Source: an uncultured Amylibacter sp.
GTDB taxonomy: Bacteria; Pseudomonadota; Alphaproteobacteria; Rhodobacterales; Rhodobacteraceae
DNA: 64,000 bases
NCBI GenBank assembly: GCA_959347425.1
Contig: OY365741.1
Coordinates: 1,946,501-2,010,500, forward strand
Direction of reading: 5' to 3'
Position 1 is the stretch's first letter. Each line of letters begins with the position of its first letter. Positions 1-49,976 of the stretch are shown one piece after another. A program made the position numbers and the translations under genes. The notes beneath the pieces are model-generated. The model was not told the origin of the DNA, made no database searches, and saw only the letters and a program-made list of their open reading frames with translations.

Positions 1-3000
1 GATACGACCGAAATCGCGCCAGATGTTTGTGGCGAGTCAAAGGGCGGAAATGCGAATCCTTTCGCCGCGTTTTGTGATGCTGCCGAAAATGATGGACAGG
101 ATGCGACCGAGCTTTTGGCGACCCGTCAGCTTACTTTATCGCATTGTAAGGATACCGTTAATGATAATTCGGGCGATGCTGTTTGTGAGAGGACTAGTGG
201 TGTTATTGCCGATCTTGACTTTGCTTGTGCGAATGGTGCAACCTCTATCACGGCGCAGTGTGCTTATACGCAATATGCAGATACGCAAAGGGCGTTTTGC
301 GCGGATGCGGGTAGCCTTAATATCTTTAATGCGGGTTGCAAAACGGACGGCACGCACGGGGATGTAACCACCGCCCGTAAAAACGAATGCGCCAAGGAGG
401 GAACGTCAATTTTGGATGCGGGGAATGTGTTCTGCCCCACTATTGTCGAGGGTATTTGCCGCGATGACGCGTTTAAACAAAAGGCGGATACAACCTATCT
501 TTGTGGAACGAATGTAGATAATGTAAATTATGTGACCGCGCGGGAGATGGCTTGCACAGTTCGCCCCGCGGATGGCGAACCTAATGAGACTAACTGTCGT
601 ACGTTTTTAGGAAGGCTTTGCTTGAATAATGAATTTGGCATGGCTGGTTCGGAGGACTATAATTGCGCGGGCGATGATACATTTGATGGCGCAAGGGAAA
701 CACGATGTGGCGCGACTGGCAACGGCGATGGGTCTTTGACTACCGAATGTATGGTTACGATAAAACGGATTTGTAAGGGGGCGGCTTCGATTACAACGGC
801 TGCCAATGGCTATGATTGTTTTAACAGTGACATTAGAGACGTGGAAATCGCAAGGCAAGCCCATTGTGCCAATCCTCCTCAGGGCGGCGATACAACGGGT
901 TGTGAAACCGTTATTGCTGGGCTTTGCACGGGTGCGGCTTCGTTTTCAGGTAGTGTGGATACGGGTAATGCCACGGACTTTTATGATTGTGCGGGCAATA
1001 CTGATCAACTCGTGATAAATGAACGCCAAGCCCATTGTGCGATTGGCGACAATGATGATATGGTGGCGGGCTGTCCAGCCGTGCTTGACGCGCTTTGCAC
1101 GAATAAGTTGGTTCAAACTACGGTGCCAACGGGGGTGCAAACGGGTGCTGGGATGAACTATAATTGTTCTACCAGTACAGTTCCAGCCGTGAAAACCGCG
1201 CGTGAAACGCATTGCCGTTTGGCCGCGAGCAATACAGGCGGACTCTGCAACGGTACAATAGCGAGTCTTTGCAGTGATAACCCATTTGAAAAACTGGATG
1301 AGGGTGCGTTCGGCAGTCTTTGCGTGGATGCGGGGGCTAGTACGGCCTATGCCACTGCCCGCAAAGAGGAGTGTCGCGATAATGGGACGGAAGGCGATGG
1401 GCAGACAGGCGGAAAATGTGCAACTCCAACTCTCAAGGGAGCGATTTGTGATGGCAATGATGTGGGCGATAGCCCTTATGCCGCGGTTTGCGGGGCTGGT
1501 ACAGCCAATCTAGCGGGGCAGACGGCGTTCTGTCGGCTTAGCCATCTTACGCCTGTATTGCAGTGTGGTGGTACTATTTCAACCGTTTGTGATGTAACGG
1601 ACGGCAACCCGTTTGATACGCTTTGTGATACGACCTATCACGGCGCCCGTGCGACTCGTTGTCGTCAATCTGAGCTTAAAACGGGTTCTGTTGATTTGCC
1701 CATGGGTGCCGATTGTGCCGATACAATAGCTTTGGCTTGTGCTGGTGGTCAGAATGGTGTCACTCCGATTACCGCGAATCCGTTTGATACCCTTTGTAAT
1801 GAGTTTTATGATGGTGCGCGGGAGATGGCATGTCGTACTGGCGATACTGGTAGCTCTAAATGCGAGGCTACGATAACGAATTATTGTGAGGATGGAGGCG
1901 TTGCGATTACGAAGAATTTGTTTGACACCCTTTGCTTGGAGGGTAATACTTATAATGTCCAACGTGACACTTTTTGCACTAAGGATATGATTTTTAATAC
2001 TAAGTGTGATGGCGATGTCCATGGTGCTACAGAGGATGCGCGTAGGACGAAATGTTTGGAAACTGGCACGGCGATTGGGGATACAGAATCGGTTTGCCCG
2101 GGTTTTGTTGCCACGGCTTGCGAAGACCCATTCACAAAACAAGAAAACGGGACGAGTAAAATTGACCTTTGCACGGGCATGAAGGGCAATACGGGTAAGA
2201 CTTATGAAGAAATCCGCACGACGGCTTGCAGTGGTGAGGCTAGCGCATGGCCAAGTAATGCGGCTCTTTGTAGCACGCCCGAGCTATCGGGTGCGATTTG
2301 TGGCAATGGGCTTGCTGCTGGGGAAGATGGTAGCGTGGTTGGCTCTAATCCCTTTGCCTATATTTGCAGTGAAGCGGATGGGAATTACTATTTTACTGGG
2401 CTTATCGAATCGCAACGAAATGCGTGTCGTGCTAGCAGAATTGCTGATGGCAGTAATTGCATGACTACGATAGAAGGTTTCTGTGGTATGCCCAATGCCC
2501 CCACCGATAGCAATAATCTGTTTGATTCGCTTTGCAATATAGGTTATGACGACGCCCGTGATAACGCGTGTTTGGAGCAACGGGTGACTGCGGGTGCGAA
2601 TAATGGTAATAACGATAATTGTAATAAACGCCAATCCGTGAAAGACACTTGCGAGGCTGACCCATTTACCAAAGCTGGGTGTGCAACTGTTGAAGGGCGG
2701 GCGGGATTCATCATAGCATATTGTACGATGGGCGATGCTGAGGATATTTTTGATGATGATTGCTTGGAAGGGGAACAAAATGTTGCCACCTATGGCGAAG
2801 TGGCAAAAGCACGTGATGACTATTGCGGTACAACTACGACGGTTGATGATGCGAATTGTACTGGTGCTAGGCAAGACAAGATTTGCGGTGTGACAGAGAA
2901 CAGCAACCCTTTCGCCGTTTTGTGTGGGAGTAATAAGGATAACCGCATAACATTTTGCGAATTGGAGACCCAGAGGGGCATGGGTCAATGTGCAGATGAT

Positions 3001-6000
3001 AAGGATGTGCTTTGTGGCGCCGATCCGTTTGGCACTGCTCTTGGTTTAAATGACAATATAAATTGTAGGACGGGCGATGGTGATTATTCTGATACGCGTG
3101 AGAGATTGGCAACGGCGTGTCGGGATAAGCAGATACCCGCGAATGGTGCGAAATGTACGAAAGCAATTGACGATTGCAATGACAATCCGTTTAGCCAAAC
3201 GGCGTTTAATGGCGGAGCATGCGATGCTCTTGCCTTTGCTGGTGCGTTTGTGCCGCATTGTGAAAAACCCGAGAATGCTTGGGAAGATAGATGTAATGCT
3301 TTCGTAGGGCAGGGCGGGGTTATGGCAACGCGGACGATGATTTGTACAACTGCCGCGACCAGTTTTACAAAGGGCTGTGTAGACGGCACGCATGGCGCGA
3401 TGGGCGCGGTTGATGGTGCGCAAGAAGCACTTGCCTTGACCTGTGTTGATACCCCCGATGCCGATGGTTGCACCGATTCTGTAAATGACATGGGGACAAC
3501 CGTTGCCCAGTGTAGCGCGAATCCATTTAGCACCACGCTGGGTTGTTTTGACAATGGTATTTTTGAAAAACAACGGGTCGCGCGGATTAGCCTTTGCACG
3601 GTTGCGGCGACTTCTTTTAACGAGTTGTGTAAGAATTTGGATGTGGCAGGCACGAATGAAACCCGTCTTGGCGATATAGACATCGCGCGGACGAATTTTT
3701 GTAAGGATATTGCTGAATATGGGAATACGGATTGCGAAACTGAGGGTCGTAGAGCCGATATTTGTGATGGTGATGAAACTACCGATAAACCCCACGCGAC
3801 CGTTTGCGGTACGAATAATGGAACGAATCAAAAGGCGTTCTGTCGGCTTGACAATAACGGTAATTCTGATGCGGATGGGTGTGAAGGCACTGTTGCCATT
3901 ATCTGTGATGTGGGTAATGGCAACCCGTTTGATACGATTTGTGGGGAGTCCTCTCACGGCGACCGTGTGACCCTTTGCCGTGACTTTGTAACGAATTCTG
4001 TTGCCTTGCCCGGAGAAAATACCACTTGTGACAGTACGGTAACCGTGGCTTGTGAGGGTAATATACTTAGTGGCGGTATGATTCCCGCAAATCCGTTTGA
4101 CCTCGTCCTTTGTGGTGCTGATTCTTATGATGACGAGCGGGAGGCGGCGTGTCGTCCGGATGGAACGCTTCCTGATGGTGCGGATTGCACCAATACGATA
4201 GGAAAATTCTGTGGGGTTGCGGGTTCCGTGGAAGTTAACAAATTGTTTGACCCTCTTTGCACGGAGGGTGATACTTATAATGGCGATCGTACAACATATT
4301 GCACTATGGGGGATACGATTTTTGACCCTAAGTGTAACAATTTCGATACGAATGGCGAAGTGACGACCGCGCGTAAAGCGGAATGTTTAAAAACAGGGAG
4401 CTCAACCTACCCTAACCAAACCTGCGAGTCTATCATTTACGGTGTGTGCATTACTAATGTGTTTGAACAAAAGACCCAAACGACCCAAGGCCAAACCACC
4501 GATCTCTGCACGGGTATGAACGAGGCAAGCGAAACCTATCATTCTCTGCGTGTGACGGCATGTGAGGGTGAGATTACCAATTTGCCAACGGGTGTTACCG
4601 CGTCTGCTTGTAATGATGAAAATTTATCGGGTGCGATTTGTGGCGATGCAGATACTATCGGGTCAAAACCCTTTGCGAAGATTTGCAGTGATGCGACTGG
4701 GAATTACTATTATGATGTGCTTACCGCCGCGCAACAAAATGCGTGCCGTAATGATGGTAATGCTGATGGTCTTGGTTGCGCGACTACGATAATGTTGACT
4801 TGTGAAGGTGGTATGCGTGGTGGCAAGGATGTTCCCGCAAATCCGTTTGACCTTGCCCTTTGTAATGATTCTTATGATACAACGCGAGAGGCTTTGTGTC
4901 GCCCCAATGGTATGGATAAAGATAATCCGGGTTGCGTCGCTACGATAGCAAAATTCTGCGTATCGCCCGTGAATACGGATGATCTTTTTGACCCGCTTTG
5001 CAGGGATGATGCTGGGGTTTATGAAACCGCACGGCAGGATCATTGTTTGTCGCTGGCTCTTGGTGCAGAACCAGACAATTGTGGGGCAGAGGGCGATGAG
5101 AATACTGTTTTGGGTAAATTCTGTAAAACGGGTCAGAATGCACGCCATTGTCCACTTAGGGAGGTGGAGATTGCCGCGTTTGTGGATACACCCGATTGGG
5201 AAACAGGGGCAAAACAGAATTCCGATGTCACAAATTTGGAGTCGACTTTGGAGGTTTTGACGATTTTGGATTTGGTCGGGACGGACGATGCCAGTGATAC
5301 CAATTATGTGAAGGCTGATGCCAATGGGGTGAAGATTGACGGTGGTGTTGATGTTAGTGGTGACAAAGCGACAACCGGTACTTTGATGTTATCAGAGGCA
5401 GGAACAACCGATGCCCAGGGCAGTGGCGTTGCCTTTGCTCGGATTGAATTTCCAACGGATACCTCGGCGACCAAGCTCAAATACTACGCTGGGATTTTGG
5501 CTGACACCGATTTGGGCGGGCGTCTTGTTGAACCGAGCGCGACGGGCGCTATGAGGTGGGACGCGGTAATTTCCATTGTGATAGGCGATGGGGCTGTTAA
5601 GAAAATAATAGATACTGGGCTATATGTTAATTTTGCGGATAAGAGCTTTAAGAGTGACAGCACGCTGGCTGCAATTGACTTTAACACTGGTGGCTCTCCT
5701 GCTCAAAATTTCTACATAGACGGTAAATTCACCACTGAAGGTATTATATATGGTACAACAAAACTTGGGACAGATGCAAGCACTATCGTCTCTGACGGTA
5801 CGCTAACAGGCTTGATTGGGAGTAAAGGCGCGGTTGCCGTGTTTGTATCCGATGGTTTGGATAATACGGGTGGCGAATACGCGGGCGGGCTTGTCGCCGA
5901 TAACCCTGACCCTAATTTTGATATTGATTGTAGCCTTGCAGGGGGCAATGCGTTTAATACGTCATTGTGCCTTGTCGCCACCCGTGCCGCGCTGTGTCGC

Positions 6001-9000
6001 GACCGTGCGACCAATTCAATAACGGATGCGAATTGCCAAACGGCAGAAATTCGCGGTGTGATTTGTGTTGCCCAAGGCGATTTTGCAAATTTGGCTGATA
6101 GTATTTGTGATGAAGATGTAGGCAATGGCGTTGATTACCAAGCCGCCCGCGAACTGGCGTTTTGTACTGTGAATGGTATCCAAGATAATCCGTTTGATGT
6201 GCTTTGTGGTGAGAATTATGAAGACCAACGTCAAATAAGCTGTAATGGTCAGCCCGTTGACGCGCCAAGCGGTGGCAGAATAATCAGACCCAAATGCGAG
6301 GAAACTATCAGCAAGCTCTGCTTGGCAGAGCCGTTTAATCGGGCCGCGGGGGCGAGTGCTATGAAATTTGATTGTCTTGCTGCGACCTCTGATATCTATG
6401 TTGAGGCGCGGGAGATGGAAATTGGGCTTTGCGTGAATGGGACGCAAACGGATAAACAACGCCCGATTTGCATGGATTCCGAGGTTGAAAAGATTACCAC
6501 CCCTTGTGGGATGGACCCGCTTGCCCCCGAATGCACGCTTTATGAAGAGCAATATATGACGCAACGCGCAACACGGCTAAGCGATTGTCGCGGGGATGCG
6601 ACCATGCGTGGGGCTACCCTTTGCACCAATGCGATACCCACGATTTGCACATCTGGTGATACGCCGTTTTCCGATCTTTGCGATAATCACCTTGATGTAA
6701 GAAAAACTGCGGTAGGTACGTGTCTTGAGGATAGCCTGCCATTGCCCGCCGTTTGTAATACGCTTGTTGCCGTTGGTAAAACGGTGCTTGATTGTATTGC
6801 CACCCCGTTTGCCACAGAATGTTCTGCTGATTTTGCACCAGCAAATTGTGAAGATGGTTCGCTTACAGCAGAGTGTCAGAATCCGTTTTATGCGGCGAGC
6901 GAGCGGATTTGTGAAGATGCAGAAACCAGTTTCACGGCTGGATGTCTTGATTATTCAAACGGTTTTGTTAGACAGCCCACTGATTCGGCAAGTCAAACCG
7001 CCGCCGCCCGTATAACGCTGATTGACCGTTGTACTGATGGTAGTATGGATAATAACACGGGGTGTGATACTATTATTGCGAATGGTGTAACGCTTATGAA
7101 TTGTATTGACAATCCGTTCCTTACGGAGTGTAGAAGCTTAATGACCCTTGCTGAGTGTGCTGATACGACACAGATGATTACGGATAGGGATTGTTCGGGT
7201 GCGGCCATTGCCTTTGCCCTGTCCCAGTCCCGCGAGGCGGTTATCAAACGTACTACGTTTGTTGGGATGTGTGTTCTTAACGAAGACAAAGATTCTGTTT
7301 GTGCTACGATTATTGCTGGTGATAAAACGATTACCGATTGTATTTCCACTCCGTTTGATGCGGATTGTTCTGCTGGCGATGTGGCGACTGCGTTTAATAA
7401 CTATCGTGCGCCAACGTGTCTTGACCCTGCGACCAGCTTTAGGGCTGCGTGTAATGAGGAAACGTATGAAGGCACGGATAACGCACGGGCAGAGCAGGCG
7501 TTAGGCTGTGCCATTGACCCGACGGGTGCTGGGTGTAGTAGTAATGATTTTGTATCGGGCAGTTTGACCGTTAATATGTGTAATGCCGACCCGTTTGCCA
7601 CTGGGTGTGAAAACCCCGCGTTTATCAATGCACGGCTACAAGCGTGTAAAGGCGCGAACCCGAATGACGCGTGTGACATAGAGCACGCGACTGCCCGTAC
7701 CAACTATGTTGCGGGTGAGGTGGCAGGGCTGCGGGATAATAGCGGTGCGGTGGGCGGGAATATAGTAAAACACACGTCAACCCTGAACGAGGCGTTTTAT
7801 CCCAATCAGAAAACTGTGATTATCGACCAAGCCGCATCTGGCTTTGCCCTTGTTTATATCCCTGAAGTTAGAAATGGCGATATAATTACGAGTCAGAGCA
7901 GATATTATGCTGGGTTGCTATCTGGCACGGATGTCGGCGCACCGCCTCACAGTAGTTTTGCCAGAGCCGAGTGGGTTGGCAAGCTGACGCTTATCAATAA
8001 GGGTACATTGGAAATGGCGGATTTCAAGCTTGATGTTGATTTTCACGCAAGGGCTATCGGTGCGCTTGATAGAATTTATAGTGTGGATTACGTCGTTACG
8101 ACATTGGGTAATTTTTACATAAATGGTAAATTCACCACCAAGGGCATTATCTATGGTACAACAAGTCTGATTGATGAGATGGAGGCAAAATCCTCGCGCG
8201 GCACGCTGACGGGTGTGATTGGGGAAAACGGCGCGGTTGGCGCGTTTATCTCTTCTGGTGCGGGGCTGGACGTGAATACACTGGGCGAATATGCTGGTGG
8301 GTTTGTTGCCGCGCCCGAATTCAATTGTAGTACAAATCCGCTTGATATACGGTGTGATTCCACTGATGATAGGATAGCAGGCTTACAGGAAGATGCCTGT
8401 TCGTTTTCATATAGTAAGGATGTTCGCGCCTGCAACCCTGTGTTTGAACGGGTTTGTATTGACCCTGAGAACACTGCTAAATTATTTTTGATAACAAGAG
8501 ATAAGAGCACTAGTGCCAACGTTAATTGTGGGGGGTCCCCCATAACCCTTGCTTTACGCAAGACGGCTTGTCTGATGAATGGTGAGGCTTTTGACTGCTT
8601 AGGCACGATAGACAAGGTTTGTAATGATAATGTTTTTGATGCTCTTTGTGATGGTGATGGGAGGTTTACCAGAACCCGTTCATTTACTTGCTTTAACATC
8701 AGTGGCAGTCTTTTTACGAGTAATAATGGGGATATTAAAAATGCCACAAATTGTGAAACCTTGATAACACGTGATTGCGAAAAAGACCCGTTTAAGGGCA
8801 TTTGCTATACTCCCGGTACTACCCTTAATAGGTACAACCCTGCGCGTGTGGCAAAGTGTGCCGACCATAATTTCGCGGCTAATAATCTGATTTGCGGGAA
8901 TAAAAACGGACTAGGTAGGATAGTACCCGACAATACGTTTGACGGGAAGAGCAGAAATATTATTGCGGATTATTGTGTCGGTATTAGCGGCAACCCTGCT

Positions 9001-12000
9001 ATAGAAGATGAATACGAGGTTTGCAACGATAAGACCGCGGATTATTTGGCGTGGCGGGATGCTGGTACGACTACCAACGATGGTGGTACGTCAGGCGACA
9101 CAACAGATGATTTTGAAGTTGGTATTGTTACGGGTTATCGCTCGGCATCGGCGAATGATGTTGGTCTTATCGCGGGCGATGCGGATGGTTTGAATTTGGG
9201 CGATGGCGCAACCAGTGTTCATAACCCAGAGACCTTGACCCTAGAGCTTGCTACCAATGGTGTTGCCATTGCCAGCGCGACGGTTGGCGGAAAATTGCAA
9301 TCATACGGCGGGTTGCTGTCTGGGGCGAATGTCGGTGCACCTGTTCAACAGGGTGATGCTACCGCCGATTGGTCTGCCCAAATCGCGCTTTTATGGCAGG
9401 ATGGGGCTTCGCCGACTCAGACGACTCTTTTACGGAATACGAAGTTTTCTATTGGACTTAATTTTAGCGCACAAGACATTGCGTTTTCCAGAACCAATGA
9501 TATTCAGCTTGTGAATACGGCTGGCGTGGATAGTGGTACAATTACTCTTGGTATTACTGGCACGACTGGTCAAAAAATGCTTGGCGGGACAGTCACTTTG
9601 AATATTGATTCGGAAACCCATGTTGGAAACTTCCGTGGTTTGATTGGCAATGATGGGCTATTGGGTGCGTTTGCAAGCAGCACAAGAACGGGTGATAATG
9701 CCTTTGCTGGTGGGCTTGTTGCAGAAGATAGTGGTGATTGCACGCCCGATGGCTCTGGGAATCCGTTCAAGACTTCTGCTGGTTGTACTGACGCAGAAAA
9801 GCGGGATGAGGTAACCAGATGTTATAATGATGGGGGGGCTCTCGGGGATTGCACTGAGATTAGTCGTTGTTTTGAAAATAGCGGGTCTGAACTGTTTGGG
9901 GTAAGAAGTTTTATTCCGAATGGTGGACAAGGTACACCTTGCACAAACCCTGTGCTTGACGGCGCACGCGCGATTTATTGCCTTGATGATAATACATCGG
10001 ATGCAAACTGTACGAATCTTCTTGCTGGAATGCCCGTGCCAAGGACTGGTGGAGGTCATTATAGCGCCTGTATTGGTCGTCCCTTCACTGGCACGATTGG
10101 GGAGTGCTTGAACGCGCTGGGGCCTGTTGCCTTTGCCCAATCACGGCTGGATATCGCAGTGGGTTGTATGACGGACGGTAAGGTAACGACGGAGGCTACG
10201 GGTACTTGCCAGCGATTCATCACTTCGGTAGGGTCTAATTGTGCCAATAATCCGTTCGATAGCAGTTGCGCTGACATCTTTACGGAGCAGGTGAGGAGTT
10301 CTGGTTTTGCGGAATTGGCGCAAGCATCGCGTTTGACGCATTGTACCGATACTGGCAACGAGGCAAGTGGTCTATGCACGGGTGCATTAACGTATTGTGC
10401 GCCTGTTTTGCCTGATTCGCCTAATCCAATTTGTGGAACGTTGGTTACCGATTATTGTTTGGGTGCTACGGGGCGTATGGTTACTGGTAGGGACGATGCT
10501 TGTACGGCAGTGTTGGCAGAAACTTGCGATGAAAACCCGTTTGATTCACGTCCGCGGTGTGAGGCTGATTATGAACAGGCACGGTTAGAGTTTTGTAAAG
10601 GGGATGGTACGCTTACCAACACCCCCACTGGCGTTGATTATGTGGGGATAACCCTTGCCGATTGTAAAACCGTTGGGGCGAAGACAGGGCAGGATTTAGC
10701 GATTTGTGGCAATGGGACTTCGGGCAGTGTGGGTGCAAATACAAATCCGTTTGCCCTTGTTTGTCAAAATTCCGATTACAACGATTATCATGGCATGCTT
10801 GATAACGCGAAAGTGGCTTATTGTGGCTCGCGCACCGCCTTATTTTTGAACACCAGCGACGAGTGCGAACCGCTTGTGATGGAGGCTTGTGGCACGGGCG
10901 GGTTTAATTATAGCGCGAACGCCTTTAACAACGCGTTTAATCCGTTGTGTCGCCAAGAGACCTATGACGACGCACGGCTTGCGGCTTGCGATGCAAATCC
11001 TAATGCTGGAGATGTACAAGGTTCCTATTATGCGGGCGGGTGTACAACGTTTCGTCTCACCGAATGCCCTGAGAATGCCGATGGTCTTATCGGGTGCGCG
11101 CAGAATAAAAACAGCACCCCTATTGGTGTTTGGACGGATAATGATGGTAATGCCCTAGGCAAGGACGGCGTGACCGCGTTGGAAATTGTGCCAGAGGGTG
11201 GGATTAGGTACACCCGCACTGATAAGAATACGGGTGCTTTTGCGCAAGCGGGGCCTACGGGTTTAGATTTAAGCGGTCTTGAATCTGTAATCACTAGAGA
11301 TGAGCATGGTAACATTATTCCTAATGATAGTACCATCCAGGCTATTACCAAAGGGAAAATAATAAAATTCGATGAGAGTGATGAGGCAAGAGGTGGCGTG
11401 GATTTTGCTATTTTACTGGATGTAAACGGACATACAAGATACTTTACTGGGCTTTTGCGTGACACGAATGTTGGCGGACCACTGGTAAATCAAGATGCCA
11501 ACGGGGACTGGACAGGCAAGACAAGATTGGCTATCAGTCGTAACCAAGCATTTAATGAAATAACGGGTTTCACCCTAAAAGTTACATTTACTGGCGGTGG
11601 CGGTACTATTACAACCCATACGAGTACAGACGATGATGCTATTGATGGTGATATTAGTGTCACTTCTATTAATACTACTACTCTTCCCAATAGGTGGCTG
11701 AGGATAAATGGTAAATTCAACGCCGAAGGTGTGTTATATGGTACAACAGATTTGTATAGTACAGCCGTAACAAACGTAACCGCAACTTATACGAAATCGC
11801 GTGTCGAGGGTACGCTTACAGGCTTGATTGGTAAAACTGGCGCGATTGGTTCGTTTTTTGCGACAGGTGGCAGGGGTATCATCGGGCAATATCTCGGTGG
11901 GTTTGTTGCCACACCCACCAGCGCAATTGCCACGAAGATTGCTGAGTCAACGACTGATTGCAGTTTTAATGGGGCAAAAGGGATGTTTGATTCAGATTTG

Positions 12001-15000
12001 CTCACAACTTTATTCCACGCCGATTGCGACTACGCAACTCTGCCACGGGCGCAGTTGTGTAGCAGTCGTAACAGCGGGTTTGATAACCGCATACTAAACA
12101 TCTGTAGAGAGGATAAGATTAGAAAATTGGTTTGTATAGGCACTGGACTTTATGCGAATCCGTTCTCGTCATTGATTTGTGGTGGTTATGCAAACCTTGA
12201 AGCCAGCAAGCTCACCTTTGCGAATCAGTGTGACGCGGGGACTGCCACGGGGAATTGTTCAAATCCAATTTTAATGAATTGTCTGGATAATCCGTATAGT
12301 GGGGCTTGCAACGTTGATGATGCTTATACCGATATCCGCACGAATCTGGAAAGCTTTTGTGGGATGGCAGGCAGTGGGGATGACATAGGATGCATGGATG
12401 CAGTTAGAGCCTGTACGGCGGCCAATCAGAAAAATTGCGGGAATATCGTTCAAACATATTGTTTTGCGGAGGCTGGTCGCTTGGTATCTGGTGCTGGGAA
12501 CGAAAAACTTTGCACGAATCATATTAATAGCGTATGCTCCAATGTAAATCCGTTTTCGGACCGTTGCACCGATTCGGTGGCGGATGTGTATGATACTACT
12601 AGGAGGGATTTTTGTAGCAGTCAGTCTCTTGATGAATTGACAACACTGGGTGCGGATCTTACCACTGATTGTCGCCCGCATGCAGTTGCGATTTGTGGTT
12701 TTTATATACCTTACCAAGCGCTGGCGGGTCCAAAGCTGTCTAACGGGAGAGGTGGTTTTACTGCTACTGGTGCAGACATACAAGAAGGTCGTGTGTATGG
12801 GACAAATCCCTATGCTGATATTTGTACCAATTCGGACGCGAACCCTGATGATGTTGACCGAGACATCGGTGAATCGAATAACCTGTATGACCGGGCTAGA
12901 AAAGGTGCAGCAACGCATGCAAAGCAAGTCCTTGCCTATTATGTTCGGGAGTTCTGCCCAGTCATTCCCAGCAATAATGAGCGAATTGACAGTTGCCCAA
13001 AGATTGATGTCGCGGGCGCGGATGGATATGAAGCGTGGCAAGTCGCGGTTGGCGAAAGACTTGTTGCCACTGGCGAAGAACTTATCTCCGCTGGCGATGC
13101 CGCATCCACCACGGAAGCCACGAACTTTATCGCGGGTTATGGGGGCGGATTGTATCTGGGCGTGGGCAATAGAAATGTTAGGAACTCAAAAACCTTTAGG
13201 CTTAACGCGGGGGCGAATGGCTTTGCCTATGCCGCAACTGGCACGGGGACGGATACACAGTTATTCACTGGGTTGCTGTCTGGTACAACCAATTTGGGTG
13301 CGCCGTTAGGGGCGGGTATTGTAGGCGCCAAATGGCGTTCCACGCTGTCCTTTTTAACACTCCAAAATGGTGTTATTACAGCGATAGAGAAAGAGGGCTT
13401 TAGCCTTACTTTTACTTTTGCAGGCGGGAATGGCACGATTGCAGGAACAGAGAATGTCGGTGATGGCATGGTGTTCCAAGTGGCGGGTACTTTTACAGGC
13501 ACAGATAATCTGCTGAGCGGGACTGTTACTTTTGGCGCAACGGAAAGCGGGACGCTTGATAGCGATGCTTTTGCCGCGGGCGGGCTCAGAACCACTGGTA
13601 TCTTGTCGGGTGTTATAGGGGCGGATGGCGCGATTGGCGTGTTCAAATCGGACACGGGCGGTGGCTTTGGCGATTTTGTCGGCGGGTTTATTGCCGCACC
13701 AGCAACAGATGCGACAGACACGGTTTGGGCGCTTAGTTTTGGAGAGGGCGAGGGGAATTATCGCACCGACTCGAGCGCGATTGGTGTGAAACTGCATAGC
13801 TCTGGTGTTAATCTCGCAAATACGAATATTATTGCGGACGGCGCTCGCTCGTTTATCCGATTGAACGCCGGTAATGAAATTTTTGTGAATAATGGGGAAT
13901 TTACCCTATTCAACCCCGGGACTGGACAATATGATTTTGGTTCTGAATCTGCACTGAATGCTCTTGCACATGGAAGAGATGCTAATGGCGACGGACTCGC
14001 GGTGGAATCAGATAAGACTATCAGGCTATCACTTGCCTTCTTTAATAATAGCGGGCTGGAAACCCCCGATAATGGCGCTAGCGGTGTAAGCTTTGGTGAT
14101 TTTAAAAGGGCGGGAGTAGGCAATGTCTGGCTTGCGGGTCTATGGCCAACCACGAATATGGGGCTTCCTTTGAAGGCAGACCCGACTACGGCAATTTGGC
14201 AGGGCAAGATATCCGCGCTTTTTGCTGGTGTATATACTGGTGAAAGGGATGCCCGCTTTGTGATTGACTATACAGGGCCGGGCGGTACGATTAAAACAAT
14301 AACTAAAACACAAGAGGAAAAAGATGCAGGTGACATAATAGAGGGTATCTTTCTTCATAGAACGGGCACCAATTATCACTACCTAAATATAGACGCAAAA
14401 TTTGATCAATTCGGTGCGGTATCTGGTACAACAGGGATTGAAGTGATTCAAATAATCAGGGGGCGCGATGACAGAGACGTTGACGATCCGGGGGCTACTG
14501 GCAGGGTATCTGGGCTGATTGGTGAAAAAGGGCTTATCGGCGCGTTTGTATCCACCGCTTCTGTACCCAAGACCGCTCCTGACTCTGGGCCCACTAACCC
14601 TGGGCTCACCTATCTGGGTGGGTTTTATGCCCTGAACCCCGATGCACCAAGAAGCGAGGAGGCGGGCGCGCCAACCAGCTTTGGTACTTGGGAGAATAGC
14701 ATCCTTATAGGCGGTTCAAGTTATGACGAGGATCAGGCGATTGCGTTTCCGGGGCTTGCGGGGCTTACGGTGAATAATTTTGGCGGGGGCGCAGAAGTTG
14801 GCACGGCAGGATTTGCCCGCCTTGGGATTAGTGACTATATCGCGGCTGATGAGACCGATAATTCGCAAGCCTTGAGCTTCTCGTTTGATGAAAACAGCGG
14901 TGTTGGCTTTGGCAGAGTTGGCACCGAATATTATTCTGGTTTGCTGGCGGGCGCGGATGTTGGGCTATCCTTGACCAAGAATCAAGAGATAACGACCGCC

Positions 15001-18000
15001 GCCACTTGGTCGGGGAAAATCGCGTTGTATGGGTTTGGGACTGGACCTAAGAATGCTACATTTAGACCTAGTGAGGAGGAGATGGATTTCGACTTGGATG
15101 TCACCTTTAATGGCACGACTGGTACGATAGCCGCCAGTTCGGTAATGTTTGAGGGGGTTAAATATCAATTTAGCGGTCCCCAAACCCTCCAATATACGCT
15201 AACGATAAATGGTACATTTAACGCGGCGGGTGTGATAAAGGGTACAACAAGTTTTGATACTAATAGAGCCGGTAGTGTGGCATCTGCTGGTGTGGTGACA
15301 GGTTTGATTGGCACACGCGGTGCGATTGGCTCTTTCATTTCCACGAAGGTTTCGGGTATGCCTAGTAGGGACATATATGCTGGTATTTATGCTGGTGGCT
15401 TTGTTGTGCAGAATCCTAATTATGAACTCACTCCAGAAATACCCGTACTAGAATCTGGGGACTTGGGTGCGGAGGTGAATTTTGCGACTTGGACAGGAAG
15501 TTTTGCTGGGGGGAAACCGAACTCCGACCATGGGCCTTTGCAGGCGACGGGTGGGGTTCTTGCTAGGGATGGGGATGGTGAACTTGGACCGTACTTTATC
15601 CGAGGGGGGACAGGTGGGATTACCACTCTTCAGGGTGGAACGAATCTGCAGTTGTCTGTACGTAAGAAAGATGGGACATTTGACACCTCTACAACCGATG
15701 GGCTCTCCTACGGGCGCGGATACGAAGCTGACTCCTTCGCTGGTTTATGGAGCGGTGTCAATGTCGGCAAGGCGTTTGCATCCCCACCCACCGCTGTCGT
15801 TTGGGAAGGCAAGATAGGTTTTTTAATAAGTACCACCGCAAACGTAGCTGTGCCAAAATTCTATCTTAATGTGACTTTTGAGGGGTCGGGCGGGACGGTT
15901 CGGTCGTCTAATGAAAAGGGTGATGCCGCTGCGGATGTAGTTTTTGACGGTAATAGAACAGTTAGGTTTTCTGGTGATTTTACCGCGGCTGGTGTGATGA
16001 CGGGGACTGTTACGACTAGTGCTAATTTCGGGCGCGGGGGCGACGGCGTATTCACTGGTATCATTGGCGAAAAAGGTGCGCTCGGCGTGTTCAAAAGTGA
16101 TCGTACGGATCTCTATAGGTACGTTGGTGGCTTTACCGCCACGAATCCAGATTATCTCAAGGTTGGCGTAAGCAACGATTACAACCTTTGGCGGGTCAGC
16201 TTTAACAGCAGGGGTGTTAATAGACAGGTCACGCACCCGATTATTACGGATACGAAGCTGGCAAACCCCTTGCACCCTCGGGGGGTCAATGTTAATCAAT
16301 TCCAAACTGGAACAACCCATTTTGTACAGGGAGAGCTAAACGGGCTTAACCTAACGGGTTCAAACGTGGTTACGGGCAGCAGCTTTACCCCCACGTTGTT
16401 AAAGTTGGCGGACGGGGTAAGCGGTTTCGCGCTTTGGCAAGATGATATCAATGTTGCGGGTGCGGCGACCTCCAATATCCAAGGCTATGTCGGGTTGCTC
16501 AACGGCACGGATGTTGGCGCAGACCCGCTTGTTACGGGTCTCACCACCTATACTGGCAAAATAATCGCCTATGTCGGCGACAGGCTATCGGATGAAACCG
16601 ATTTCACTCTTAATATCGACTATGGTAGAAATGAAATTGACGCGGTCGTTGAATTGCTGGAGACACGATTCCAGTTTGATGGCAGATTTAACGTTCTGGG
16701 CGTTATCTCTGGCGATGTTTTGATAGGGGCGGATGGTGTTCCGGGCTCTTTCAACGGGTTGCTTGGGACAGAATCCGCAATCGGCGTGTTTAAAAATACC
16801 GTGGGTAGTACCGTGGGTAATACGAGCAAGACGTTTATCGGCGGCTTTGTGGTCAGCGATAAATTTGCCAATTCCCCAGATTGGGCGAAAAGCTTTGCCA
16901 GCGGTGGGGCGAACGCGGGGCAAGCTCTTTTGGAAGAGAATGGGCATTTGCGCAGTACTGTGGCGGGTGCAGGGACGCACTTTATCAGGGCAACCGCTTC
17001 TAATATCAGGGGTGCTAGCAGTGGTTCGGTAAATCTGTTGCATTTGCATTTAGCTGGCAGCAATTCGGACGGCGGTGTGGCGTTCGTGCAAGAGCTTTCT
17101 AATGGGCATCAAGTCGGCTATGCAGGGTTGCTGAGCACCACGAATGTCGGGTTGCCGTTGGAATTGCCAACGGGAGATGAGGAGATATCGGCGACTTGGA
17201 ATGGTGCTATTCAGGCCTATGTGGGCGAGACGCTGGCTAAATCCACGTTTAATCTTATGGTTAATTTTATGGACAGGGACGTTGACGGGGCTGTTACTCT
17301 AGGCGGTAAGAAATTCACGTTTGATGGTGATTTTACCGATAAAGGCATTATGTCTGGCGTGGTTTCGGTTGCGGATGTGAGTGATCAAGGCTCTTTCAAC
17401 GGGTTAATTGGGGTGCGCGGTGCGGCTGGCGTGTTTAAGAATAACGATACTAATTCGCAGGGTCAGTTTGTCGGCGGGTTCGTTGTCACGCCCGTGCTTG
17501 CTACCGATGCTAGGGTGATTTTTGATGCTTGGGCACCAACTGTGACTGGTTTGCAGGCTGAGGGATATGCGAACACGCGAAGAGAAAATCGTATATCGTA
17601 TTTTATCAGGGGTTCTGCCTCTGGTATTGCAGGAACTACTGAAAGTGATATTCTGACATTGCAAAGCGACCTTGCCAGTGGCGGTGTAGCCTTTGGCAAA
17701 AGAGAAGATCCAAATTTCGTCCATAATAGCTATTTTACTGGTTTGTTAAAGGGTACGAATGTCGGACGGCATATTGAAAATGAAAATCTTAACGGGGTTT
17801 GGAAGGGGACAATCCGCACCTATATAGATCAAAATTTGCAAGGCGCGGCTACTTTTAATCTTAATGTTGATTTTGGCGGGACGAGGACGGGCGGTGCTGC
17901 TGACAGTGTCGGGACGCTTATCGGGGCGATTACAGGTTTTCAGTTTAACGGCGATTTTAACAGGGCTGGTGTGATATCGGGAGGTGTGGTCTACACGCCG

Positions 18001-18150
18001 AGTGACAGTGGTCGTACTGCCACGAATGGCACTTTCAATGGTCTAATCGGCACACTTGGCGCGGTCGGCGCATTCAAAGACGATGGTAGGGGCAGTTCGA
18101 CTTTCGCTGGCGGGTTTGTCGCGAATCCTCCCACCGAGGAAACGCAGTGA
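1..18150 (+). CDS. Giant modular protein (Cys-rich modules plus 11 beta domains), 5' end missing
   Basis: The reading frame is open from base 1, so the 5' end lies outside the window; 6049 residues are visible. A TTG at 115 is not the start, because the frame upstream of it already encodes the same kind of Cys module (NPFAAFC). Residues 1 to about 1720 are consecutive four-Cys modules of roughly 45-60 residues, pattern C-x3-I-x(2-3)-C...NPFD-x-LC...Y-x3-R-x3-C. A Cys-free beta domain follows, then shorter Cys blocks and beta domains alternate. From about residue 4334 to the stop there are seven beta domains in tandem with no cysteine at all. Each beta domain (about 210-310 residues) carries Y-x-GLL-x-GT-(D/N)-VG, then W-x-GKI, G-x-F-x-x-x-G-(V/I)-I-x-G, GLIG-x-x-GA-(I/V)-G-x-F and finally Y-x-GGFVA. 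I see no autotransporter, RTX or sortase signal. A cell-surface or secreted adhesin- or binding-type protein is inferred. A resemblance to TbpB-like lipoprotein barrels is only suggestive. Confidence 0.9.
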   Translation, partial: DTTEIAPDVCGESKGGNANPFAAFCDAAENDGQDATELLATRQLTLSHCKDTVNDNSGDAVCERTSGVIADLDFACANGATSITAQCAYTQYADTQRAFCADAGSLNIFNAGCKTDGTHGDVTTARKNECAKEGTSILDAGNVFCPTIVEGICRDDAFKQKADTTYLCGTNVDNVNYVTAREMACTVRPADGEPNETNCRTFLGRLCLNNEFGMAGSEDYNCAGDDTFDGARETRCGATGNGDGSLTTECMVTIKRICKGAASITTAANGYDCFNSDIRDVEIARQAHCANPPQGGDTTGCETVIAGLCTGAASFSGSVDTGNATDFYDCAGNTDQLVINERQAHCAIGDNDDMVAGCPAVLDALCTNKLVQTTVPTGVQTGAGMNYNCSTSTVPAVKTARETHCRLAASNTGGLCNGTIASLCSDNPFEKLDEGAFGSLCVDAGASTAYATARKEECRDNGTEGDGQTGGKCATPTLKGAICDGNDVGDSPYAAVCGAGTANLAGQTAFCRLSHLTPVLQCGGTISTVCDVTDGNPFDTLCDTTYHGARATRCRQSELKTGSVDLPMGADCADTIALACAGGQNGVTPITANPFDTLCNEFYDGAREMACRTGDTGSSKCEATITNYCEDGGVAITKNLFDTLCLEGNTYNVQRDTFCTKDMIFNTKCDGDVHGATEDARRTKCLETGTAIGDTESVCPGFVATACEDPFTKQENGTSKIDLCTGMKGNTGKTYEEIRTTACSGEASAWPSNAALCSTPELSGAICGNGLAAGEDGSVVGSNPFAYICSEADGNYYFTGLIESQRNACRASRIADGSNCMTTIEGFCGMPNAPTDSNNLFDSLCNIGYDDARDNACLEQRVTAGANNGNNDNCNKRQSVKDTCEADPFTKAGCATVEGRAGFIIAYCTMGDAEDIFDDDCLEGEQNVATYGEVAKARDDYCGTTTTVDDANCTGARQDKICGVTENSNPFAVLCGSNKDNRITFCELETQRGMGQCADDKDVLCGADPFGTALGLNDNINCRTGDGDYSDTRERLATACRDKQIPANGAKCTKAIDDCNDNPFSQTAFNGGACDALAFAGAFVPHCEKPENAWEDRCNAFVGQGGVMATRTMICTTAATSFTKGCVDGTHGAMGAVDGAQEALALTCVDTPDADGCTDSVNDMGTTVAQCSANPFSTTLGCFDNGIFEKQRVARISLCTVAATSFNELCKNLDVAGTNETRLGDIDIARTNFCKDIAEYGNTDCETEGRRADICDGDETTDKPHATVCGTNNGTNQKAFCRLDNNGNSDADGCEGTVAIICDVGNGNPFDTICGESSHGDRVTLCRDFVTNSVALPGENTTCDSTVTVACEGNILSGGMIPANPFDLVLCGADSYDDEREAACRPDGTLPDGADCTNTIGKFCGVAGSVEVNKLFDPLCTEGDTYNGDRTTYCTMGDTIFDPKCNNFDTNGEVTTARKAECLKTGSSTYPNQTCESIIYGVCITNVFEQKTQTTQGQTTDLCTGMNEASETYHSLRVTACEGEITNLPTGVTASACNDENLSGAICGDADTIGSKPFAKICSDATGNYYYDVLTAAQQNACRNDGNADGLGCATTIMLTCEGGMRGGKDVPANPFDLALCNDSYDTTREALCRPNGMDKDNPGCVATIAKFCVSPVNTDDLFDPLCRDDAGVYETARQDHCLSLALGAEPDNCGAEGDENTVLGKFCKTGQNARHCPLREVEIAAFVDTPDWETGAKQNSDVTNLESTLEVLTILDLVGTDDASDTNYVKADANGVKIDGGVDVSGDKATTGTLMLSEAGTTDAQGSGVAFARIEFPTDTSATKLKYYAGILADTDLGGRLVEPSATGAMRWDAVISIVIGDGAVKKIIDTGLYVNFADKSFKSDSTLAAIDFNTGGSPAQNFYIDGKFTTEGIIYGTTKLGTDASTIVSDGTLTGLIGSKGAVAVFVSDGLDNTGGEYAGGLVADNPDPNFDIDCSLAGGNAFNTSLCLVATRAALCRDRATNSITDANCQTAEIRGVICVAQGDFANLADSICDEDVGNGVDYQAARELAFCTVNGIQDNPFDVLCGENYEDQRQISCNGQPVDAPSGGRIIRPKCEETISKLCLAEPFNRAAGASAMKFDCLAATSDIYVEAREMEIGLCVNGTQTDKQRPICMDSEVEKITTPCGMDPLAPECTLYEEQYMTQRATRLSDCRGDATMRGATLCTNAIPTICTSGDTPFSDLCDNHLDVRKTAVGTCLEDSLPLPAVCNTLVAVGKTVLDCIATPFATECSADFAPANCEDGSLTAECQNPFYAASERICEDAETSFTAGCLDYSNGFVRQPTDSASQTAAARITLIDRCTDGSMDNNTGCDTIIANGVTLMNCIDNPFLTECRSLMTLAECADTTQMITDRDCSGAAIAFALSQSREAVIKRTTFVGMCVLNEDKDSVCATIIAGDKTITDCISTPFDADCSAGDVATAFNNYRAPTCLDPATSFRAACNEETYEGTDNARAEQALGCAIDPTGAGCSSNDFVSGSLTVNMCNADPFATGCENPAFINARLQACKGANPNDACDIEHATARTNYVAGEVAGLRDNSGAVGGNIVKHTSTLNEAFYPNQKTVIIDQAASGFALVYIPEVRNGDIITSQSRYYAGLLSGTDVGAPPHSSFARAEWVGKLTLINKGTLEMADFKLDVDFHARAIGALDRIYSVDYVVTTLGNFYINGKFTTKGIIYGTTSLIDEMEAKSSRGTLTGVIGENGAVGAFISSGAGLDVNTLGEYAGGFVAAPEFNCSTNPLDIRCDSTDDRIAGLQEDACSFSYSKDVRACNPVFERVCIDPENTAKLFLITRDKSTSANVNCGGSPITLALRKTACLMNGEAFDCLGTIDKVCNDNVFDALCDGDGRFTRTRSFTCFNISGSLFTSNNGDIKNATNCETLITRDCEKDPFKGICYTPGTTLNRYNPARVAKCADHNFAANNLICGNKNGLGRIVPDNTFDGKSRNIIADYCVGISGNPAIEDEYEVCNDKTADYLAWRDAGTTTNDGGTSGDTTDDFEVGIVTGYRSASANDVGLIAGDADGLNLGDGATSVHNPETLTLELATNGVAIASATVGGKLQSYGGLLSGANVGAPVQQGDATADWSAQIALLWQDGASPTQTTLLRNTKFSIGLNFSAQDIAFSRTNDIQLVNTAGVDSGTITLGITGTTGQKMLGGTVTLNIDSETHVGNFRGLIGNDGLLGAFASSTRTGDNAFAGGLVAEDSGDCTPDGSGNPFKTSAGCTDAEKRDEVTRCYNDGGALGDCTEISRCFENSGSELFGVRSFIPNGGQGTPCTNPVLDGARAIYCLDDNTSDANCTNLLAGMPVPRTGGGHYSACIGRPFTGTIGECLNALGPVAFAQSRLDIAVGCMTDGKVTTEATGTCQRFITSVGSNCANNPFDSSCADIFTEQVRSSGFAELAQASRLTHCTDTGNEASGLCTGALTYCAPVLPDSPNPICGTLVTDYCLGATGRMVTGRDDACTAVLAETCDENPFDSRPRCEADYEQARLEFCKGDGTLTNTPTGVDYVGITLADCKTVGAKTGQDLAICGNGTSGSVGANTNPFALVCQNSDYNDYHGMLDNAKVAYCGSRTALFLNTSDECEPLVMEACGTGGFNYSANAFNNAFNPLCRQETYDDARLAACDANPNAGDVQGSYYAGGCTTFRLTECPENADGLIGCAQNKNSTPIGVWTDNDGNALGKDGVTALEIVPEGGIRYTRTDKNTGAFAQAGPTGLDLSGLESVITRDEHGNIIPNDSTIQAITKGKIIKFDESDEARGGVDFAILLDVNGHTRYFTGLLRDTNVGGPLVNQDANGDWTGKTRLAISRNQAFNEITGFTLKVTFTGGGGTITTHTSTDDDAIDGDISVTSINTTTLPNRWLRINGKFNAEGVLYGTTDLYSTAVTNVTATYTKSRVEGTLTGLIGKTGAIGSFFATGGRGIIGQYLGGFVATPTSAIATKIAESTTDCSFNGAKGMFDSDLLTTLFHADCDYATLPRAQLCSSRNSGFDNRILNICREDKIRKLVCIGTGLYANPFSSLICGGYANLEASKLTFANQCDAGTATGNCSNPILMNCLDNPYSGACNVDDAYTDIRTNLESFCGMAGSGDDIGCMDAVRACTAANQKNCGNIVQTYCFAEAGRLVSGAGNEKLCTNHINSVCSNVNPFSDRCTDSVADVYDTTRRDFCSSQSLDELTTLGADLTTDCRPHAVAICGFYIPYQALAGPKLSNGRGGFTATGADIQEGRVYGTNPYADICTNSDANPDDVDRDIGESNNLYDRARKGAATHAKQVLAYYVREFCPVIPSNNERIDSCPKIDVAGADGYEAWQVAVGERLVATGEELISAGDAASTTEATNFIAGYGGGLYLGVGNRNVRNSKTFRLNAGANGFAYAATGTGTDTQLFTGLLSGTTNLGAPLGAGIVGAKWRSTLSFLTLQNGVITAIEKEGFSLTFTFAGGNGTIAGTENVGDGMVFQVAGTFTGTDNLLSGTVTFGATESGTLDSDAFAAGGLRTTGILSGVIGADGAIGVFKSDTGGGFGDFVGGFIAAPATDATDTVWALSFGEGEGNYRTDSSAIGVKLHSSGVNLANTNIIADGARSFIRLNAGNEIFVNNGEFTLFNPGTGQYDFGSESALNALAHGRDANGDGLAVESDKTIRLSLAFFNNSGLETPDNGASGVSFGDFKRAGVGNVWLAGLWPTTNMGLPLKADPTTAIWQGKISALFAGVYTGERDARFVIDYTGPGGTIKTITKTQEEKDAGDIIEGIFLHRTGTNYHYLNIDAKFDQFGAVSGTTGIEVIQIIRGRDDRDVDDPGATGRVSGLIGEKGLIGAFVSTASVPKTAPDSGPTNPGLTYLGGFYALNPDAPRSEEAGAPTSFGTWENSILIGGSSYDEDQAIAFPGLAGLTVNNFGGGAEVGTAGFARLGISDYIAADETDNSQALSFSFDENSGVGFGRVGTEYYSGLLAGADVGLSLTKNQEITTAATWSGKIALYGFGTGPKNATFRPSEEEMDFDLDVTFNGTTGTIAASSVMFEGVKYQFSGPQTLQYTLTINGTFNAAGVIKGTTSFDTNRAGSVASAGVVTGLIGTRGAIGSFISTKVSGMPSRDIYAGIYAGGFVVQNPNYELTPEIPVLESGDLGAEVNFATWTGSFAGGKPNSDHGPLQATGGVLARDGDGELGPYFIRGGTGGITTLQGGTNLQLSVRKKDGTFDTSTTDGLSYGRGYEADSFAGLWSGVNVGKAFASPPTAVVWEGKIGFLISTTANVAVPKFYLNVTFEGSGGTVRSSNEKGDAAADVVFDGNRTVRFSGDFTAAGVMTGTVTTSANFGRGGDGVFTGIIGEKGALGVFKSDRTDLYRYVGGFTATNPDYLKVGVSNDYNLWRVSFNSRGVNRQVTHPIITDTKLANPLHPRGVNVNQFQTGTTHFVQGELNGLNLTGSNVVTGSSFTPTLLKLADGVSGFALWQDDINVAGAATSNIQGYVGLLNGTDVGADPLVTGLTTYTGKIIAYVGDRLSDETDFTLNIDYGRNEIDAVVELLETRFQFDGRFNVLGVISGDVLIGADGVPGSFNGLLGTESAIGVFKNTVGSTVGNTSKTFIGGFVVSDKFANSPDWAKSFASGGANAGQALLEENGHLRSTVAGAGTHFIRATASNIRGASSGSVNLLHLHLAGSNSDGGVAFVQELSNGHQVGYAGLLSTTNVGLPLELPTGDEEISATWNGAIQAYVGETLAKSTFNLMVNFMDRDVDGAVTLGGKKFTFDGDFTDKGIMSGVVSVADVSDQGSFNGLIGVRGAAGVFKNNDTNSQGQFVGGFVVTPVLATDARVIFDAWAPTVTGLQAEGYANTRRENRISYFIRGSASGIAGTTESDILTLQSDLASGGVAFGKREDPNFVHNSYFTGLLKGTNVGRHIENENLNGVWKGTIRTYIDQNLQGAATFNLNVDFGGTRTGGAADSVGTLIGAITGFQFNGDFNRAGVISGGVVYTPSDSGRTATNGTFNGLIGTLGAVGAFKDDGRGSSTFAGGFVANPPTEETQ

Positions 18151-18224: not shown

Positions 18225-18926
18225 ATGAGCAATACCGAATCCTTTATTAATGAGGTCAGCGAATCCCTGCGCAAAGACCGCCTATACGCTATTTACCGCC
18301 GTTGGGCGTGGGTCGGCGTGCTGATTATCGTGCTTATCGTGGTCGGCGCGATTGGGGTGGAATGGGTGCGGGCGCGAACTGCCTCTGCTCAAGAGGCGGC
18401 TGGGGACGCGATATTTACCGCGTTGCGGGCGGATGCGCCGTCCGAATCAGCGCGTCTGTTGGGTGAGATTGATTTGGATAATGCAGAGGCGCGGGCGATG
18501 GTCGCGTTAAAACGCGCGGCGTTATTATTGGATAGTGGCGAGCGGGCGCAGGCGGTTGCCGTACTGGAAACCGTGCGGGGTGAAAACGATTATTCCGATA
18601 CGTTCCGCGATTTGGCAGATTTGAAATCGTTGTTAATACAAGGCGCGGATTTGCCCGCCGATGACCGCAGGGCGCGGTTTGATGCCTTGGCTCGGAATGG
18701 TGGGGCGTTCCGCCTGTTGGCTATGGAGCAATTGGCGTTGTTATCCGCAGAATCTGGCGATACGGGTGCGGCTTTGGCTGGAATGGTGAATTTGCTGGCG
18801 CAGGATGGAATATCAGAGGCTATGGGCAATCGGTTGCGCCAAACCATAGTTTCAATGGGCGGGGATGCGCCCGTGGTTGATACGGGTGCTGGTGCTGGTG
18901 TGGACGCGGGTGCGGGCGTGCAATAA
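18225..18926 (+). CDS. YfgM-like membrane-anchored TPR protein
   Basis: This 233-residue protein has a short cytoplasmic N-terminus with basic residues, one membrane segment at about residues 29-47 (VGVLIIVLIVVGAIGVEWV), and an Ala/Leu-rich helical region after it. That matches the alphaproteobacterial TPR_21 (YfgM-type) family, which is associated with SecYEG and chaperones at the periplasmic face. The start is supported by GGAG eight bases upstream. The gene lies 46 bp before the BamB gene and ahead of der, the order seen in many proteobacteria, where YfgM, BamB and Der are neighbours. The C-terminus ends in a Gly/Ala/Val low-complexity tail. Family placement is by architecture and context and is fairly secure; the exact role is inferred. 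Confidence 0.8.
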   Translation: MSNTESFINEVSESLRKDRLYAIYRRWAWVGVLIIVLIVVGAIGVEWVRARTASAQEAAGDAIFTALRADAPSESARLLGEIDLDNAEARAMVALKRAALLLDSGERAQAVAVLETVRGENDYSDTFRDLADLKSLLIQGADLPADDRRARFDALARNGGAFRLLAMEQLALLSAESGDTGAALAGMVNLLAQDGISEAMGNRLRQTIVSMGGDAPVVDTGAGAGVDAGAGVQ

Positions 18927-49864: not shown

Positions 49865-49886
49865 TTTCATCCCCTTTTTTATGATA

Positions 49887-49920
49887 AAACCCTTGAGCAA
49901 CGATTGCCACCCAAGGGTTT
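49887..49920 (-). terminator. Hairpin between bufA and bufB (partial terminator or RNA stabiliser)
   Basis: AAACCCTTG (49887-49895) pairs with CAAGGGTTT (49912-49920), and an inner GCAA/TTGC stem lies in the loop. On the minus strand only four U residues follow before the sequence changes, so read-through is expected. The placement fits high expression of the small precursor and lower expression of the enzymes. Confidence 0.65.
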
Positions 49921-49976
49921 TTGTCGACAGAGGTCTGGTAGCCTTTACTCCAAAATATCCTCCCTAATGTGGTACA

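Follow-up and report, generated by a model that had tools for sequence, protein, structure and literature searches.

The window analyzed here is a stretch of 64,000 nucleotides from an uncultured Amylibacter sp. (contig OY365741.1). Its bases 1 to 18150 on the plus strand form a single open reading frame (ORF) in frame +1, uninterrupted for 6,049 codons up to a stop ending at 18150 and open at the left end. An initial annotation had described an incomplete giant gene with more than 6000 visible residues and had proposed extending it leftward. Indeed, a 7,270-aa protein from a protein collection (P0002) matches the window protein with its residues 1222 to 7270 (6,049 of 6,049 residues identical). 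Window residue 1 is P0002 residue 1222, and the window part, preceded by 1,221 residues, makes up the last five-sixths of the protein; the start and the signal were thereby found at the protein level, not at the DNA level. Downstream on the same strand lies yfgM-bamB-der, comprising genes for a YfgM-like protein of 233 aa (18225 to 18926; named by position and by eye, with no Pfam match), BamB (PQQ_2 in Pfam; 18973 to 20448) and the GTPase Der/EngA (Pfam; 20477 to 21991). Their products are 39%, 45% and 59 to 61% identical, respectively, to the counterparts at locus L039 of genome G792. Third-position G+C is 0.448 in the giant gene (window 1 to 18147) and 0.52 to 0.61 in four neighboring genes.

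P0002 has a mass of ~760 kDa, a pI of 4.4, 4.7% Cys and 0.9% His. The initial annotation saw no export or anchoring signal at the C terminus and left the secretion route open. The N terminus of P0002, however, (MNTLLNTILAQITYTRGALIALFAGLFILTACGGGG) carries, at motif level, a hydrophobic segment with the lipobox L-T-A-C, and the signal peptidase II cleavage motif (...LFAGLFILTAC↓GGGG) lies outside the window. A lipoprotein signal motif was found in 17 of 22 homologous proteins (E ≤ 0.001 among 925 candidates scored), P0002 included; the remaining five start within Cys modules. RTX repeats, a TPS domain and a C-terminal autotransporter barrel were absent (Pfam at E ≤ 0.1 for the window part; precomputed Pfam annotation and inspection by eye for the N terminus), and a giant adhesin of the type 1 (RTX), two-partner or autotransporter kind was rejected, its defining domains not being found in P0002.

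Searched in three pieces, the window protein gave no match in Pfam (E ≤ 0.1) or NCBIfam, and in the N-terminal 1,221 residues of P0002 the precomputed Pfam annotation was empty and nothing was recognized by eye. Megablast of bases 1 to 8000 against plasmids gave no match; 26 candidate stretches in viral contigs and 10 in GTDB contigs searched with the N terminus yielded none that was confirmed. In the literature covered, mostly outside subscription journals, no title or abstract opening describes a comparable protein.

Since the longest exact direct repeat within bases 1 to 18150 measures 22 bases and 21 further homologues of 3.5 to 8 kaa were retrieved, an assembly collapse, which the initial annotation had named as a refuting outcome, is unlikely. 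Six intragenic DNA duplications were detected, and because they are only 76 to 81% identical, the longest spanning 141 bases, the repeats are not recent copies. An assembly artefact, a collapsed repeat or a decaying gene would suit a repeat-rich giant gene of low third-position G+C, some homologues of which look broken at contig edges (apparent frame errors occur in some public contigs, e.g., at the C terminus of P0006). Yet the full copy is open over 7,270 codons, and the homologues P0004 to P0011, at 38 to 65% identity, are collinear in lobe order where compared, which points to long-term selection. This explanation is largely refuted and, in our view, extremely improbable.

The eleven beta-type domains counted in the initial annotation were recovered exactly. 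A lobe profile built from this protein found 11 copies in P0002, all within the window part, and after retraining on 12 homologues it still found 11 there; at the same cut-off, it had no match in 100 residue shuffles and two in the reversed protein. The lobes are located at 5299 to 5898 (D1), 7699 to 8313 (D2), 9169 to 9723 (D3), 11314 to 11913 (D4), 13120 to 13698 (D5), 14047 to 14631 (D6; a profile match, the whole segment probably starting near 13699), 14752 to 15408 (D7), 15592 to 16143 (D8), 16315 to 16854 (D9), 16852 to 17505 (D10 with its N-terminal handle) and 17596 to 18126 (D11). The match of D11, the C-terminal lobe, ends 7 residues before the stop, so that the protein ends in a barrel. 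One lobe, D10, was modelled, and the other ten, which are 26 to 36% identical to it, were assigned by profile. The AlphaFold2 model of D10 (pLDDT 79, pTM 0.81) comprises a "handle" and an 8-stranded barrel, and its best matches in the PDB were TbpB, hemophilin (HphA), HpuA, NHBA and fHbp, a fold known from cargo of type 11 secretion (Slam/T11SS).

As predicted from this model, the lobes have the TbpB/hemophilin handle-barrel fold, and a one-lobe relative encoded at the corresponding locus links them by sequence to Pfam family PF01298. We call the giant TbpB-like and not a PF01298 member because none of the 11 window lobes matches PF01298 directly over the curated cut-off and only the one-lobe relative in G792 does. 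The annotation's view that the protein belongs to no named family therefore stands for Pfam and NCBIfam searches of the window part, but not for the fold of its beta domain. Two sequence searches of the PDB returned one match each at chance level (E 0.57 and 1.5), and PHROGs gave nothing for the two C-terminal lobes or for the 233-aa neighbor.

The second building block is a four-Cys module with the consensus Y..AR..xC - x8-18 - C..TI..xC - x2-20 - [N/D]PF..LC. The window part contains 250 Cys and, in line with the dozens of modules noted initially, 42 modules when the giant itself was among the training sequences of the profile (a lenient setting, with domain E-values as high as ~1) and 40 when the profile was rebuilt from just 12 homologues (single-sequence E < 0.01). 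At the lenient cut-off, P0002 has 55 modules and the other 21 homologues 19 to 59; if all of them sat in modules, the 341 Cys of P0002 would account for ~85. The Cys profile gave a mean of 0.08 matches (maximum 1) in 100 residue shuffles and one in the reversed protein. Compared with 200 shuffles, the motifs R-x3-C (45 observed, 9.9 expected, maximum 18) and [NDS]PF (25 observed, 1.7 expected, maximum 5) were strongly enriched and C-x6-7-C more weakly (35 observed, 19.9 expected, maximum 32).

Both components of the proposed two-module design were thus found by profiles, in an uneven arrangement and not in regular interleaving. In P0002, the lipid anchor is followed first by four-Cys modules over ~2,900 aa, then by five lobes amid Cys modules and finally by six Cys-free lobes. 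Residues 32 to 2980 hold 219 Cys and no lobe, residues 2988 to 5594 hold 122 Cys and lobes D1 to D4, and residues 5595 to 7270 hold D5 to D11 and no Cys. In window coordinates, bases 1 to 5298 encode solely Cys modules, and each of D1 to D5 has Cys modules before it (D2 to D5 thus being separated by them from the preceding lobe). The last Cys is window residue 4332 (base 12996); from 12997 to the end, across D5 to D11, there is none.

The four-Cys module matches nothing known, as judged from Pfam and a PDB profile search. In Pfam, 10 Cys-module stretches gave chance-level matches only (best E 0.19), and the module profile had no match in the PDB. The initial annotation had advised predicting the structure of each module separately. 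The beta domain gave the D10 model, and the Cys module reached a pLDDT of 39; its model consists of nearly all helices, was too poor for a fold search and matched nothing in the PDB, and from it the module is probably helical. Of 1,233 candidates for small Cys-module proteins, two matched, and these seem to be pieces of proteins from the giant's own family. With profile A7, no Cys module was found in three genomes including G792, a weak result in a set that had no positive genome.

The fold of D10 raises the question of nutrient capture, in which the lobes would be true hemophilin/TbpB-like receptors that pass heme, metal carriers or host nutrients to a TonB receptor, with copies for avidity. 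HphA, TbpB and HpuA are the nearest solved structures, and the window contains genes for ZnuA-type zinc uptake and for siroheme synthase, though ~24 kb and ~36 kb away. However, Pfam scans of the 30 further ORFs in the window turned up no TonB-dependent receptor, nothing points to a binding partner for the lobes, and the Cys modules would be left without explanation. Furthermore, because of the low identity of the ten lobes to D10 and the scarcity of His, a single ligand site common to all lobes is unlikely. We consider nutrient capture unlikely.

Comparison of the 22 homologues revealed 5 to 22 lobes per protein. Lobes D1 to D9 follow the same order in P0002 as in P0004 and P0007 to P0011, with per-lobe identities from 33% to 89%; D10 and D11 had no consistently separate partners. 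Close pairs differ in blocks with sharp boundaries. P0004 and P0005 are 97.9% identical outside a single block (P0004 residues 5087 to 5577) and 50.2% identical within it. The block corresponds in position to D4, and its P0004 version is 93% identical to P0006, its P0005 version 87% to P0002. In the pair P0018/P0021, 11 blocks totalling 1,411 aa show 61.4% identity, compared with 96.0% elsewhere, and several of them match P0020 in one partner and P0019 in the other. Eight blocks (945 aa, 60.4%) set P0002 apart from P0003, the remainder being 95.2% identical; four of these blocks are in Cys regions and one wholly encloses D8; no near-identical donor (>84%) for these blocks was among the proteins retrieved.

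As far as protein sequences tell, the patterns in P0004/P0005 and P0018/P0021 are most simply read as recombination, and single blocks may also stem from chimeric assembly, given the frame errors in some public contigs. The idea that diverged blocks are lobe-specific was rejected: all 11 blocks of P0018/P0021 lie after residue 1890, and since 62.4% of their residues fall in lobes and the lobe content there is 63.6%, they show no preference for lobes. Pairs of proteins on contigs of equal size (P0005/P0019, 83,424 bases; P0013/P0023, 2,370,456 bases; P0011/P0016, 48,003 bases; P0002/P0028, 2,381,456 bases) suggest that there are several lobe genes per genome. P0028, a lipoprotein of 491 aa, lacks Cys modules and is, with its two lobe matches, bilobed like TbpB.

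The genomic position of the giant gene is shared with a much smaller gene. In G792, the order is panB, a one-lobe lipoprotein gene, yfgM, bamB and der (panB and yfgM named by eye). The one-lobe lipoprotein (L039 4026 to 4670; 214 aa; lipobox LSGC) was found by the lobe profile and passes the Pfam cut-off for TbpB_B_D (PF01298). We compared 27 of the 33 G792-group genomes besides G792, scoring ORFs of at least 90 aa; one stretch of 145 bases was dropped, leaving 26 loci. In none of these did an ORF between the panB side and yfgM-bamB-der match the lobe profile at E < 0.01; panB lay within ~110 bases of yfgM in 17 of the 26 loci and was not recognized within 6 kb in the other 9. A lobe lipoprotein in this slot is rare and common to G792 and the window organism. 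Mainly because the slot is rare and shared, we regard the two genes as most likely orthologous, the giant being a hugely enlarged counterpart of the one-lobe lipoprotein, even though the G792 lobe is only ~27 to 34% identical to the giant lobes matched at E < 0.01 and the panB side lies outside the window. Two related candidates were rejected. D11 is the best P0002 match of the G792 lobe, yet other lobes win in most other homologues, so that D11 was not retained as the ancestral lobe. G792 was not retained as the closest relative, since its Der is 59 to 61% identical to that of the window, compared with 64% in G451 and others; its AlaS is a fragment.

AlaS comparisons placed G395 (70%) and G529 (69%) nearest to the window, together with a fragment from G800 (also 70%); in the class sample, G161, G259, G029 and G338 showed 64 to 66% and the others ≤60% among the matches listed. 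Three of the 22 giant proteins are labelled Candidatus Halichondribacter symbioticus, a sponge symbiont assigned by NCBI to Rhodobacterales. The carrier of the giant is probably an alphaproteobacterium near Rhodobacterales from a sponge-symbiont lineage, and the window organism itself may likewise be sponge dwelling. A firm placement in Rhodobacterales was not retained, since the order of G161 follows from AlaS identity, from the closeness of thymidylate-synthase-type and SlipAM genes in L027 and L029, and from the NCBI lineage of Candidatus Halichondribacter. At E ≤ 0.001, lobes were detected in none of a set of seven, none of 385 class genomes, 3 of 390 order genomes (sampled genomes, some of them perhaps incomplete) and 1 of 121 relatives of G395, the latter being the same genome as the one positive among the 33 of the G792 group. 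The order sample contained four weak lobe matches in small ORFs of three genomes (L020 1099 to 1692, L021 ~1501 to 1737, L022 1489 to 2100 and L023 1204 to 1947), none of which matches Pfam (the fourth scored as a longer frame). These ORFs are mostly ~200 to 250 aa long with lipoprotein-like starts, and those of L020 and L021 adjoin sdhB-like genes (by eye).

The annotation had suggested a search for a dedicated secretion system, Slam-like among others. According to the portions of the source texts available, known T11SS cargo proteins share an eight-stranded C-terminal barrel (PMC8406197, PMC12282271), and a Rhodobacteraceae T11SS locus includes thymidylate synthase, lactoylglutathione lyase and DUF1194 genes (PMC12282271). 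For marine cluster 3 T11SS proteins, the Rhodobacteraceae kind, the same paper describes the barrel domain as a rare companion, at 0.21 predicted cargo for each protein, yet 10 of 11 closely examined loci have barrel cargo (PMC12282271). In our searches, SlipAM exceeded its cut-off in two of seven relatives and, within the G792 group, in 11 of 33 genomes (G792 among them); 14 control genomes yielded nothing. G792 has two SlipAM stretches, one in a 453-aa ORF and the other next to a DUF1194 gene where a contig ends; in L027 and L029, a thymidylate-synthase-type gene (by eye) lies near the SlipAM gene. Two lipoproteins directly before SlipAM genes were checked, and that of L029 had a subthreshold TbpB_B_D match and that of L027 none; for G737 the outcome was no PF01298 match. 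In the window itself, the Pfam scan of the 30 further ORFs showed no SlipAM. Slam-like export is thus the best-supported route at present, with SlipAM seen in relatives only.

The lack of a SlipAM in the window would also suit a structural lipoprotein on the inner leaflet of the outer membrane, facing the periplasm or filling vesicles, in which the Cys modules serve as envelope spacer or thiol store. A lipobox alone is no proof of surface exposure, and the gene precedes the envelope genes yfgM-bamB (yfgM by name only). Nevertheless, the solved structures nearest to the lobe belong to proteins that are secreted or surface located, block differences and variation from 5 to 22 lobes would be unusual for a periplasmic structural part, and the order yfgM-bamB-der occurs without a lobe match at the 26 other loci. 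We regard a periplasmic role as quite unlikely.

We judge the interpretation in the initial annotation partly supported, its expectation of a surface protein being probably right. The continuous gene, its N-terminal lipoprotein motif, the 11 TbpB/hemophilin lobes, the dozens of Cys modules, the shared locus and the block differences are all computed, and a surface tether with exchangeable binding lobes is our best reading of them. More specifically, the protein is rather likely to be a giant outer-membrane surface lipoprotein exported by T11SS, with a Cys stalk and variable lobes for binding or masking. It would be exported by Sec, lipidated at Cys32 and carried to the outer membrane by Lol, where a T11SS (Slam/SlipAM) protein may recognize the barrels and mediate passage to the outside. 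Once oxidized, the Cys modules would build an extended helical stalk stapled by disulfides. At its far end, the Cys-free lobes would serve as a multivalent, host-facing tip for binding or masking, diversified by block recombination. Against this surface reading stand the failure of all 11 lobes to match PF01298, the low identity of the G792 lobe, the lack of a SlipAM among the window ORFs scanned, the rarity of lobes in relatives, the infrequent pairing of cluster 3 T11SS with barrel cargo (PMC12282271), the G737 lipoprotein that does not match PF01298, the mere two to three handle-barrel pairs of the largest multilobe cargo in the text available and the absence of any indicated binding partner. 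A further-reaching scenario is conceivable, although we consider it less likely than not: a sponge-symbiont lineage would have turned a one-lobe TbpB-type lipoprotein into the largest known T11SS cargo family, in which a stalk stapled by disulfides bears as many as 22 lobes, and would swap lobe-sized cassettes between alleles by recombination, giving modular surface variation toward an animal host without adaptive immunity.

Among known systems, the TbpB/LbpB surface lipoproteins (PF01298, Slam dependent) resemble the giant in lipoprotein signal, lobes of handle plus 8-stranded barrel and C-terminal barrel, but they have 2 lobes instead of 11 (5 to 22 in homologues) and lack its dozens of Cys modules. 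HphA and HpuA, the best Foldseek matches for D10, are single proteins of ordinary size, and their heme/hemoglobin binding is not indicated for the giant. The G792 lipoprotein shares the slot before yfgM-bamB-der, the lipobox and a lobe, but has 214 instead of 7,270 aa and no Cys-module match; the two thus provide, at one locus, a before-and-after pair for the origin of a giant gene. Apilactobacillus kunkeei is a Gram-positive bacterium. Its Giant1-5 are also giant surface proteins (3,000 to 8,000 aa) of a host-associated organism and are likened here by their description in the available part of PMC12863079. Multilobe T11SS cargo of Sphingomonas and Psychrobacter likewise repeats handle-barrel pairs in one chain, but, as far as the available text of PMC12282271 shows, with two to three copies and Pro-Thr-type repeats, compared with 11 to 22 copies and Cys modules in the giant family. 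The lobe count per protein is thereby extended from one to three in these partly accessible published cases to 11 to 22, and an unassigned four-Cys module is added to the TbpB-type architecture. If T11SS exports the giant, it would set a new size limit for this pathway. The block differences between near-identical genes offer a testable case of surface variation in sponge symbiosis.

Elsewhere in the window, a minus-strand row of genes at 48213 to 50276 encodes a DUF2282 peptide (99 aa), an MbnB/TglH/ChrH-type enzyme and a DUF2063 protein, which we take to resemble a bufferin-type RiPP cluster. An N6/N4 DNA methylase is encoded at 56937 to 57845, also on the minus strand.
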